Source of the DNA: Noviherbaspirillum denitrificans
GTDB taxonomy: Bacteria > Pseudomonadota > Gammaproteobacteria > Burkholderiales > Burkholderiaceae_D
Assembly: GCF_002211445.1 (NCBI RefSeq)
Contig: NZ_LSTO01000001.1
Location: 4,223-53,536 of the forward strand
Direction of reading: 5' to 3'
Length of the DNA stretch: 49,314 nt
A program made the translations under genes and the position numbers. Shown here one piece after another: positions 616-3,674 of this stretch (its first letter is position 1; each line of letters begins with the position of its first letter). The notes under the pieces are model-generated. The model was not told where the DNA came from. It saw only the letters and a list, made by a program, of their open reading frames with translations, and ran no database searches.

Positions 616-1779
616 CTACAGACCGGCGGCGGCGCGCAATGCGGCTGCCTTGTCCGTACGCTCCCACGAGAATTCCGGCTCTTCACGGCCGAAGTGGCCG
701 TAGGCGGCGGTCTTCGAATAGATCGGACGCAGCAGGTCGAGCATCTGGACGATGCCTTTCGGACGCAGGTCGAACAGTTCATGCACGAGGACGGCCAGCT
801 TGTCGTCGCTGATCACGCCGGTACCGAACGTGGTGACCATGATCGATGTCGGTTTGGCAATGCCGATTGCATAAGACACCTGGATCTGGCAGCGCTTGGC
901 CAGGCCGGCGGCGACGATGTTCTTCGCCACGTAACGGCCGGCGTAGGCGGCGGAACGGTCGACCTTGGACGGATCCTTGCCGGAGAATGCGCCGCCACCG
1001 TGGGGAGCTGCGCCGCCGTAGGTGTCGACGATGATCTTGCGGCCGGTCAGGCCGCAGTCACCCTGCGGGCCGCCGATGACGAAACGGCCGGTCGGGTTGA
1101 TCAGGTAGCGGGTGTTCTTCAGCCACTCCTGCGGCACCACCGGCTTGATGATTTCCTCGATCGCGGCTTCTTCGATCGCCTTGTGCTCGATGTCCGGGCT
1201 GTGCTGGGTGGACAGCACGATGGTGTCGATCGCAACCGGCACGCCGTCGACGTACTTCAGCGTGACCTGGGACTTCGCATCCGGACGCAGCCACGGCAGG
1301 CGGCCGTCCTTGCGCAGTTGCGACTGGCGCTCGACGATGCGGTGCGAATAGTAGATCGCAGCCGGCATCAGTTCCGGCGTCTCGTCGCAGGCATAACCGA
1401 ACATCAGGCCCTGGTCGCCGGCGCCCTGGTCGAGGTCGATGCCCTTGCCTTCATCCACGCCCTGCGCGATATCCGGCGATTGCTTGTCGTAAGCGACCAG
1501 CACGGCGCAGCTCTTGTAGTCGATGCCGTAGTCGGCATTGTCGTAGCCGATGCGCTTGACGGTGTCGCGTGCGACGCTGATGTAATCGACGTTGGCGGTG
1601 GTGGTGATTTCGCCGGCGAGGACGACGAGGCCGGTGTTGCAAAGAGTTTCAGCCGCGACGCGTGCTTTCGGGTCCTGTGCCAGGATGGCATCGAGGATGG
1701 AATCGGAAATCTGGTCCGCGACCTTGTCGGGATGACCTTCGGAGACGGATTCGGAAGTGAAGAGATATTCGTTTGCCAT
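616..1779 (-). CDS. metK: S-adenosylmethionine synthetase
   Basis: This 387-residue protein has the usual MetK length and begins [19 protein letters not shown]. It makes S-adenosylmethionine from methionine and ATP in the cytoplasm. Family signatures visible are GHPDK near residue 16 (ATP and metal binding), [12 protein letters not shown], and [16 protein letters not shown] in the C-terminal third (phosphate binding). The ATG at 1779 is chosen because AGGAG lies 6 nt upstream and homologues start here; the frame stays open upstream, but that part is leader. A good sigma-70 promoter sits about 125 nt upstream, which leaves a long structured leader (separate entry). The gene is divergent from the acyltransferase pair. 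Confidence 0.98.
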
Positions 1780-1906
1780 TGCAGGCTCCTGTAATGATGA
1801 TTGCTGACCATGTCGCGGCCAAACATTCAATTCGAGCCTGCGACGCTTTAGCGAGATTTGTATTCCGCCTCGCAAGTTGTCGTGTTAACTCGGCGGGTAC
1901 AGCAAT
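1780..1906 (-). promoter_or_regulatory. metK leader: Structured metK leader, candidate riboswitch
   Basis: The RNA would start near 1906 and run to the metK ATG. Positions 1896-1906 and 1800-1809 form a 10-bp closing stem with one bulge. Inside are an imperfect hairpin (1892-1896 with 1865-1869, and 1887-1890 with 1875-1878), a small CGC-UAAA-GCG hairpin (1844-1853), and a stem GTCGC-A-GGC/GCCGCGAC (1836-1844 with 1812-1819). The segment GCAGGCTC (1841-1834) is perfectly complementary to GAGCCTGC (1788-1781), which overlaps the ribosome-binding site and ends next to the ATG. That pairing and the last internal stem exclude each other, as in a translational switch. It shares CAGGCTCG with SAH riboswitches but lacks their remaining core. 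Ligand and direction of control are unknown. Confidence 0.5.
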
Positions 1907-1911
1907 ATGAT

Positions 1912-1939
1912 ATTTTACGCGTCTTCCAAAGTTTCTCAA
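1912..1939 (-). promoter_or_regulatory. sigma-70 promoter of metK
   Basis: On the minus strand TTGAGA (1939-1934) is separated by 16 nt from TAAAAT (1917-1912). The predicted start, about 1905, coincides with the first base of the leader's closing stem. Confidence 0.6.
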
Positions 1940-1959: not shown

Positions 1960-2805
1960 ATGCTTGTCAGACTTTTTCACCTGCTTTCCGTCATGCCGCT
2001 CCCCGTCCTGCATGGCTTCGGTGCGGTCCTGGGGTGGATGGTCTATCTGGCATCGCCATCCTACCGGCGGCGCATGAAAGACAACATCACCCGCGCTGGT
2101 TACGCAGGTTCGCTGCCATCCGCCATCGCTGAAGCGGGCAAGAACATCCTCGAGCTGCCGTTCGTCTGGTGCGCCCGGCCCGAACGCGTGCTGAAAACCG
2201 CACGCATTGAGGACTGGGAAGTTGTGCAATCGGCGCTGGATGCAAAGCAGGGAATCATCTTCCTGACGCCGCACCTTGGCTGCTTCGAAATCCTGGCGCA
2301 AAAAGTGGCTTCGATCACCCCTGTCACGGTCATGTACCGCCCCCCGAAGAAATCGGCGCTCAAGCCGCTGGTCGAGGACGCGCGCCGGCGCAACAACCTC
2401 GGCCTTGCACCGGCGACGCTGTCGGGCGTACGCCTACTGCTCAAGACGCTCAAGCAGGGCAACCTCATCGGCATCCTGCCCGATCAGGTGCCGCAGGAAG
2501 GCGAAGGCGTATGGGCCGATTTTTTCGGCAAGCCCGCGTACACGATGACCTTGCCGGCCAAGCTGCAACAGATGACCGGGGCACCGATCATTCTCTCGTA
2601 TGCGGAACGCCTCCCGGGCGGCAAGGGCTATGTGCTGCGCTTCGCGCGCTTCGACGGTGACATGACAGGCACGCCCGCCGACCAGGCGCGCGCGATCAAT
2701 GCCGGCATGGAAGCGCTGATCGCACACTGCCCCGCGCAGTACTTCTGGAGCTACAACCGCTACAAGGCCCCGGACGGCATCGCGGGCCCAGGGGAGACAC
2801 AATGA
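1960..2805 (+). CDS. LpxL/HtrB-family lipid A acyltransferase (first of pair)
   Basis: This 281-residue protein belongs to the lysophospholipid acyltransferase superfamily that adds secondary acyl chains to lipid A at the inner face of the cytoplasmic membrane. The hydrophobic N-terminus anchors it. The catalytic HX4(D/E) motif is visible as TPHLGCFE near residue 105, and the family's late motif appears as [10 protein letters not shown] at the C-terminus. The ATG at 1960 is preferred over the TTG just upstream; neither has a clear Shine-Dalgarno. Its stop overlaps the next gene's start (ATGA), so the two acyltransferases are translationally coupled. Which secondary acylation each performs cannot be told from sequence. 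Confidence 0.88.
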
Positions 2806-3674
2806 GGCTGCTCCTTGGGGTAATGTGGCTGCTGCACTGGCTGCCGCTGCCGCTGCTCGCGCGCATCGGCGAAGCAGTCGGCTCGCTGCTTTTCCTAGTC
2901 GTGAAATCGCGCCGGCACATCACGCTGACCAACCTGCGCCTGTGCCTGCCCCAGCTGTCCGAGGAAGAACGCCGGTCGATCGCGAAGAAGCATTTCCAAG
3001 CGTATGCGCGCAGCGTGCTGGAACGCGCCATCCTCTGGTGGGCGCCGGAAGCGCGCCTGCACCGCCTGATCCAGGTCGAGCCACGCGTGCCGCTCGATAC
3101 CATCCAGTCGGGCCCGACCATCCTCCTTTGCCCGCATTTCGTTTCGCTGGATGTGGCCGGCGTTGCGGTCGTCCTGGAAACCAACCTGTGCTCGATCTAC
3201 ACCAAGCAGCAGAACAAGGTGTTCGACGAAGCACTGCGCAAGGGCCGCTCGCGCTTCCGTCCGGTGCGGCTGTTTTCGCGCGGCGAAGGCGTCAAGCCGA
3301 TCATCCGCGCGATGCGCGAAGGCCTGCCCTTCTTCATGCTGCCGGACATGGATTTCGGCGAGAAAGATGCGGAGTTCGTGCCCTTCTTCGGCATCCCGGC
3401 CGCGACGCTGACAGCACCGGCGCGCATTGCCGGAGCAACAGGGGCGAAGGTCGTACCGGTCATCGCCACCTATCTGCCGAATTACCGCGGCTGGAAGGTC
3501 AGCTTCCATCCTGCCTGGGACAACTACCCCGGCGACGACATTACGGCGGCGACGCGGCGCATGAATGCCTTTATCGAAGACCGCGTGATGGAAGCACCGG
3601 CAGAATACTTCTGGGCGCACAAGCGCTTCAAGACGCGTCCGCCGGGCGTGCCAAGCGTCTACGCAAAGTTATAA
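2802..3674 (+). CDS. LpxL/HtrB-family lipid A acyltransferase (second of pair)
   Basis: This is a paralogue of the preceding gene (290 residues) with an N-terminal membrane anchor, the catalytic HX4D motif as CPHFVSLD near residue 112, and the C-terminal [13 protein letters not shown] signature. It probably adds the other secondary fatty acid to lipid A. It starts inside the upstream gene's stop codon and ends 8 nt before dapF, so acyltransferase 1, acyltransferase 2 and dapF look like one transcript linking outer-membrane and peptidoglycan precursor synthesis. Confidence 0.9.

Follow-up and report, generated by a model that had tools for sequence, protein, structure and literature searches.

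What controls metK in beta-proteobacteria is the question raised by the locus analysed here, which lies in a window of 49,314 nucleotides from Noviherbaspirillum denitrificans (the window being the whole stretch of DNA under analysis). As far as the accessible text of a survey of approximately 200 proteobacterial genomes goes, the beta-proteobacterial metK was left without a known methionine regulator, and a search for one failed (PMC4239095). A sequence-only reading of the window had proposed that the metK leader is a SAM-related translational switch based on mutually exclusive pairings, and this is the reading best backed by the comparative data. Judging from these comparisons, the leader very probably switches translation off by means of an aptamer of the SAM-II type that has diverged.

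The gene is metK, as had been proposed, and the promoter, closing stem, anti-Shine-Dalgarno and internal stem named in the sequence-only reading all lie where it had placed them (Table 1). The promoter hexamers (1939-1912) are separated by a 16-nt spacer and together match 10 of the 12 consensus positions; two promoter-like sites are present on both strands of 1700-2060, against a mean of 0.3 (sd 0.5) in shuffled sequences. The heptamer GTAAAAT is found no more than 50 nt 5' of the P1 helix in 21 of 31 family leaders (raw count), in 16 of them at about the same spacing as in the window and in five approximately 25 nt further upstream. Counted from the predicted RNA start, the metK leader is approximately 126 nt long, and its fold (-41.3 kcal/mol, z -2.21) is moderately above chance, being equalled by 3 of 200 shuffles. 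No transcription terminator was found in 1700-2060. A coding leader, suggested by an open frame that runs upstream past the ATG, was rejected, since 65 of 89 relatives hold an in-frame stop between the aptamer core and the ATG. The closing stem of the sequence-only reading (1906-1896 with 1809-1800) exists in the window as 10 pairs with one bulge and -12.5 kcal/mol, but 36 family leaders show no conservation of it, own pairing (-3.61 kcal/mol) hardly differing from permuted pairing (-3.56 kcal/mol; 2144 of 5000 permutations as good), and it was therefore rejected as part of the element.

Table 1. Features of the metK locus, in window coordinates (R1, covariance model described in the text; SD, Shine-Dalgarno)
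Feature	Coordinates	Strand	Sequence	Basis or remark
metK, methionine adenosyltransferase	616..1779	-		NCBIfam TIGR01034, 602 bits; three Pfam S-AdoMet_synt domains
-35 hexamer	1934..1939	-	TTGAGA	consensus scan
-10 hexamer	1912..1917	-	TAAAAT	consensus scan; GTAAAAT recurrence in family leaders
SAM-II-like aptamer (P1, third strand, P2a/P2b pseudoknot)	1840..1898	-		R1, RF00521 alignment, pair counts
P1 5' strand	1892..1896	-	CCGCC	covariation with 1869-1865
Third strand	1887..1891	-	GAGUU	G at 1889 corresponds to U10 of SAM-II
P2b 5' strand	1879..1881	-	GAC	pairs with 1844-1842
P2a 5' strand	1870..1873	-	GCGA	covaries with 1854-1851 at 2 of 4 pairs
P1 3' strand	1865..1869	-	GGCGG	covariation with 1896-1892
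P2a 3' strand	1851..1854	-	UCGC	pair counts with 1873-1870
P2b 3' strand	1842..1844	-	GUC	also used by the competing hairpin
Competing (anti-anti-SD) hairpin, 5' strand	1836..1844	-	GTCGCAGGC	kept in 31 family leaders
Anti-Shine-Dalgarno	1834..1841	-	GCAGGCTC	exact complement of 1788-1781; co-variation with SD
Competing hairpin, 3' strand	1812..1819	-	GCCGCGAC	GCGAC almost invariant within a variable stretch
Shine-Dalgarno region	1781..1790	-	AGGAGCCTGC	1788-1781 = GAGCCTGC, pairs with 1841-1834

The core of the leader, which the sequence-only reading had missed, is a pseudoknot formed by P1, P2a and P2b. A third strand, GAGUUAA, sits in the P1 loop, and the P2 helix is made by CUUGCGA and UCGCUAAAG. 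For its comparison, a covariance model (R1) was trained on 25 metK elements and two tandem copies, 27 aptamers in all, with P1 as its only structure. Pairs were counted in 115 R1 matches from 90 loci (104 distinct rows, no motif filter), loci that had been picked as strong R1 matches and are thus biased toward conserved cores. The P1 hairpin followed by the P2 pseudoknot, in the SAM-II order, is present in this set, with 93.6% of the cells of P1, P2a and P2b paired, and both-side changes occur at 11 pairs and in 158 cells (57.7 in shuffles). The covariation reaches 0.255 compared to 0.083 in shuffles (0 of 500 as high), falling to 0.064 or less when the partners are slid by one to three columns. 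Both-side changes affect two pairs of P2a and two of P2b, and the P2 counts are independent of R1, because P2 is absent from the aligning model, whereas the P1 counts do lean on it.

Similar values were obtained when the model was applied to metK elements on their own (67 of 94 leaders; 65 distinct rows): pairing extends to 94.8% of the cells, both-side changes occur at 8 pairs and in 82 cells (28.3 in shuffles), and the covariation is 0.224 against 0.117 (0 of 500), while further pair types are about as numerous as in shuffles (201 of 500). These leaders had passed a string filter demanding CTTGC or ATTGC together with GCTAAAG, so that the invariance of those letters is circular, and the counts were for this reason repeated on all R1 matches unfiltered. 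P2b is nearly invariable among the metK elements, in contrast to the wider set, and 27 of the 65 rows lack the outermost pair of P1. The window's family (31 leaders) has an almost identical core between variable flanks. Both core strings occur in 40 of 48 metK upstream regions of relatives; in the remaining eight (L034, L038, L041, L042, L045, L046, L048, and L049), R1 gave 14.3 bits for L049, 8.7 bits for L041, and nothing at E <= 10 for the other six, none of them convincing. The sequence-only reading had tied its proposal to conserved stems with compensatory changes in related genomes. P1 and P2 do covary; of the stems that it had itself described, the closing stem is unconserved, and the internal stem is kept among 31 family leaders but shows no both-side change there.

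The relation of this core to SAM-II emerges from searches in both directions. RF00521 (SAM_alpha) was the single match in a 141-base scan, where it aligned with 1906-1827 co-linearly and over the full length of the family model, but with 9.7 bits (E 5.6) against a curated cut-off of 36 bits, so that the clear match to an existing Rfam family, named by the sequence-only reading as a refutation, holds for the alignment and not for the score. No Rfam family reached its cut-off in a scan of the whole window, and the same leader within 701 bases left RF00521 unreported at E <= 10. Over 18 loci, 16 of them metK leaders with the core strings, cmscan reported 2 of the 16 at E <= 10, namely L006 with 18.2 and L029 with 18.0 bits, and two further metK leaders reached 17.7 and 16.5 bits in a genome search with RF00521. 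Such low scores by themselves would not count as evidence.

In the opposite direction, R1 gives 78.3 bits on the window aptamer, which is one of its own training sequences. Among 60 relatives, RF00521 passes its cut-off in three genomes (L051, 45.2 bits; L052, 40.6 bits; L053, 38.4 bits), and R1 scores 41.9, 32.7, and 42.6 bits at the same three loci, the first of which lies upstream of an O-succinylhomoserine sulfhydrylase gene. Six of ten strong SAM_alpha loci elsewhere in the phylum were recovered by R1 at 14–19 bits (E <= 0.02), the other four being unreported at E <= 1. Over 150 genomes of the phylum, RF00521 found loci in 25 at E <= 0.0001 (22 above the cut-off) and R1 in 15 at E <= 0.01; four loci, as we read the two tables, are common to both models, and these do not include the strongest RF00521 loci. 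The core is best explained as a diverged pseudoknot of the SAM-II type, carrying a translational platform and falling below the Rfam threshold.

The binding pocket was compared by position, using numbers placed through the co-linear alignment and a crystal sequence. According to the accessible text of PMC3764141, U10 is completely conserved in SAM-II together with U11, U12, U20, U21, G22, C23, G42, C43, U44, A45, A46, and A47. The twelve positions other than U10 are all present in the window, each of them in 55 of 55 metK matches, and they are invariant in 115 of 115 R1 matches. Position 10, on the other hand, is G in the window. Three groups of elements, separated by the neighbouring gene (tblastn) and by the string preceding UUGC, differ at this position: metK elements (n = 55) hold G in 48 cases and U in the other seven; other elements of the metK type hold G in 14, U in 17, A in one and a gap in one (n = 33, including L134 and L136, both truncated downstream); and terminator-type elements hold U in 26 and G in 1 of 27. 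By these counts, G10 is a property of the element type, commonest at metK.

The same distribution speaks for a SAM-II-shaped aptamer whose ligand preference has been retuned through G10, tolerating SAH, for example, or binding SAM much more weakly. Also in its favour, U8 of SAM-V (the equivalent of U10) forms a hydrogen bond to the U paired with the adenine of SAM, as described in the accessible part of PMC6061858; a G could, by analogy, retain such a bond. Since the other listed pocket positions are invariant, those of the U-A-U triple close to the sulfonium among them, and G and U alternate inside the element type, a retuned preference appears improbable. Slightly less doubtful, although still tentative, is that G10 marks a functional SAM-II variant with affinity or specificity reset, such that metK (G10, translational) and metX (U10, terminator-like hairpin) would answer different SAM levels in the same cell; the occurrence of G10 in 14 of 33 elements of this type outside the metK group lowers the odds of this two-set-point reading. 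Strict membership of RF00521 is not claimed, because the leader scores below the cut-off and lacks U10. A function like that of SAM-II is nonetheless likely, a view that rests on the co-linear alignment, the conservation and covariation, the reciprocal recovery, and the pocket.

Between this aptamer and the ribosome-binding site the leader holds the two competing pairings. As the sequence-only reading had noted, GCAGGCTC is an exact complement of GAGCCTGC, and the internal stem (1844-1836 with 1819-1812) is present and is kept in the 31 family leaders. Both pairings use 1841-1836 and are therefore mutually exclusive, with -15.4 kcal/mol for the competing hairpin alone and -24.8 kcal/mol for the anti-Shine-Dalgarno to Shine-Dalgarno segment. 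The Shine-Dalgarno sequence (1790-1786) starts approximately 50 nt past the aptamer end at 1840. The 31 family leaders vary little here (88.9% of the cells paired for the competing hairpin, 90.7% for anti-Shine-Dalgarno/Shine-Dalgarno), and taken alone they give no excess of anti-Shine-Dalgarno/Shine-Dalgarno pair counts over shuffles. A wider test took 88 leaders that had passed the string filter and reduced them to 45 representatives at 62% similarity (L113 was dropped for its leader length). Each anti-Shine-Dalgarno pairs with its own Shine-Dalgarno at -13.52 kcal/mol, compared to -9.62 kcal/mol (sd 0.42) for permuted partners, a value reached by 0 of 5000 permutations, which leave some shared ancestry in. 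For the 37 representatives that do not belong to the first family set, the values are -12.84 and -9.33 kcal/mol (0 of 5000), and control windows give 293 (downstream) and 1756 (upstream) of 5000. Some lineages, such as L120, L140, L141, and L148, have a weak anti-Shine-Dalgarno, and the competing hairpin was not recognised by eye outside the window's family.

These parts suggest how the switch might operate. The binding of SAM would stabilise P2, including P2b (GAC 1881-1879 with GUC 1844-1842), whose formation would withdraw the GUC from the competing hairpin formed by GTCGCAGGC and GCCGCGAC; the freed GCAGGCTC would then mask the ribosome-binding site by pairing with GAGCCTGC. When SAM is absent, the competing hairpin would keep the anti-Shine-Dalgarno, leaving the Shine-Dalgarno open and metK translated. 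From this we infer SAM as the ligand, the OFF direction, and a decision made during transcription. An equilibrium model covering 87 of 89 leaders, all of which had passed the string filter, weakly backs the OFF direction: among the family leaders 20 of 37, and among the others 40 of 50, have a higher predicted energy of opening the Shine-Dalgarno in the bound state, and in the window this energy rises from 6.9 to 8.9 kcal/mol. In many close relatives this opening costs 8–10 kcal/mol in both modelled states, so that a real switch would need to be decided during transcription.

A Shine-Dalgarno that is hard to open in either modelled state would also be expected of a translational leader without any ligand, such as a thermosensor or a protein-binding site. 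That reading is very unlikely, given that the pocket nucleotides left unpaired do not vary between families, an invariance that a simple thermosensor does not need. More unlikely still is a new class of SAM riboswitch unrelated to SAM-II, which agrees with the lack of any Rfam family at its cut-off in the window. The sequence-only reading, which recognised none of the known classes and called the switch possibly new, had leaned this way; a new class was rejected because the core is SAM-II-like, with a co-linear SAM_alpha alignment, a conserved pocket, and a metK-based model that recovers accepted SAM_alpha members. Finally, the location between divergent genes and beside a promoter could point to an operator or a promoter feature conserved as DNA instead of an RNA, a reading that base-pair covariation in P1 and P2 and co-variation of anti-Shine-Dalgarno and Shine-Dalgarno leave with next to no probability.

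The SAM-II-like element is associated with metK beyond the window. An exact pattern derived from the window's element, which thus favours its own kind, gave at least 117 matches in a collection of 84,980 genomes. Among the matches listed, 98 of 117 lie directly upstream of metK, 20–320 nt 5' of the gene, 9 have a MATE transporter as the second gene, 4 precede another or an unrecognised gene, and 6 are too close to the end of the locus for classification; no upstream SAM-II was found by pattern in the 98 named metK loci among the matches listed. Among the matches listed, the records that name an organism are, as we take them, beta-proteobacterial, and their genera include Massilia, Janthinobacterium, Undibacterium, Oxalobacter, Cupriavidus, Bordetella, Polynucleobacter, Dechloromonas, and Chromobacterium, among others; some records say only Proteobacteria or uncultured bacterium. 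With all element types pooled, R1 at E <= 0.01 finds matches in 226 of 300 genomes sampled from the order.

Three elements are detected by R1 in the window's own genome: at metK, on contig 9, and upstream of metX. The metX element (L060, 1514-1570) is a SAM-II element with U at position 10, followed before metX by what looks by eye like a terminator hairpin with a T run, and is probably the metXZ element of PMC4239095. On contig 9 (L031), a SAM-I/IV riboswitch (1387-1495, 59.2 bits) is followed 3' by a SAM-II-like element (1567-1624; 67.6 bits with R1, of which it is a training sequence). This tandem precedes an ORF of 188 aa without Pfam match at E <= 0.01, and the flanking ORFs (123-1181 and 2695-3270) look like near-identical antiporter pieces, as if the segment had been inserted or duplicated. 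The same genome holds an SAH riboswitch (RF01057, 53.9 bits; L273, 1501-1581) 5' of ahcY.

Tandems of a terminator-type SAM-II followed by a metK-type element were observed in other genomes (L076, L078, L098, L106, L119, L123, L137, and others). They precede a small protein starting with MFDC or MYDC (the two tested had no Pfam match), which is followed, where read, by a MATE-like transporter. Tandem elements were also seen in L101 and L102, the former upstream of an ORF resembling an HD-type hydrolase and with a second metK-like ORF further downstream (both named by eye). In one genome of the class (G576), the metK-type model matches 10 times, and several of these matches form pairs approximately 100 nt apart. 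A class genome outside the order shows a SAM-II-like match of 40 bits with a longer loop (L286, 1501-1565). Some elements in L033, L036, L039, L040, L114, L119, and L123 hold an extra stretch, a hairpin by eye, between P1 and the P2 3' strand, recalling the 'SAM-II long loops' named in the accessible text of PMC2864571.

Compared to known systems, the metK element shares with SAM-II (RF00521) P1 and the P2 pseudoknot, the third strand, the UUGC / GCUAAAG core, the order of the parts, and a methionine/SAM gene context. Unlike SAM-II, its metK leaders score 9.7 bits (window) and 16.5–18.2 bits (four others) against the cut-off of 36; it usually has G10, its P2b is GAC/GUC, it would control metK, and it reaches a Shine-Dalgarno approximately 50 nt past the aptamer through an anti-Shine-Dalgarno. 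The SAM/SAH riboswitch (RF01727) and the SMK box (SAM-III) are likewise translational switches 5' of metK, differing from it in fold and lineage, and neither had an Rfam match in the leader. SAM-V (RF01826) was absent from the Rfam matches at E <= 10. The accessible parts of PMC4239095 and PMC6061858 also place the SAM/SAH riboswitch and the SMK box in other folds and lineages than the metK element. SAM-V has a related core and translational control, and has been found downstream of terminator-type SAM-II in tandems (PMC6061858, PMC9481103, in part); however, its Shine-Dalgarno lies inside a short helix at the end of the aptamer, as the accessible text of PMC6061858 has it, whereas the metK leader uses a separate anti-Shine-Dalgarno. 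The available part of a review reports 44 SAM-II tandems, some with a second copy masking the ribosome-binding site, as well as two SAM-I/IV + SAM-II tandems (PMC9481103); the order it describes, terminator-type SAM-II and then a second SAM-II, is that of the non-metK L076 and L119.

The beta-proteobacterial metXZ element of Leyn et al. 2014, described in the accessible text as a pseudoknot of regions 1-4 and 2-6 located 5' of metX/metZ (PMC4239095), probably corresponds to the metX/metZ SAM-II elements found here; unlike the metK element, it has a terminator platform, and it is unreported for metK. In the parts of the literature available, SAM-II is mainly alpha-proteobacterial, with Bordetella, Coxiella, and Bacteroides also listed (PMC1273637); Barrick and Breaker describe terminator-type SAM-II in alpha- and beta-proteobacteria (PMC2258182), and Leyn et al. 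SAM_alpha only in Rhizobiales and Rhodobacterales (PMC4239095). No report of SAM-II 5' of a beta-proteobacterial metK was found in these texts, although supplementary lists may name some. Thus, the SAM-II kind and its tandems are already known, and what seems to be new is the placement at the beta-proteobacterial metK together with the unusual pocket base.

The element in the window is overlooked by annotation at the Rfam cut-off. Its G10, with the usual U at metX in the same genome, provides a natural experiment on a supposedly fully conserved position of the SAM-II pocket, and the G10/U10 pair would, if the two set points were true, amount to two-set-point control of SAM synthesis. For the organism, the cell is probably able to turn metK off when SAM is plentiful. 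The metK element probably fills the regulator gap left in the accessible account of PMC4239095, giving a specific, testable answer for metK regulation that may extend over much of the order.
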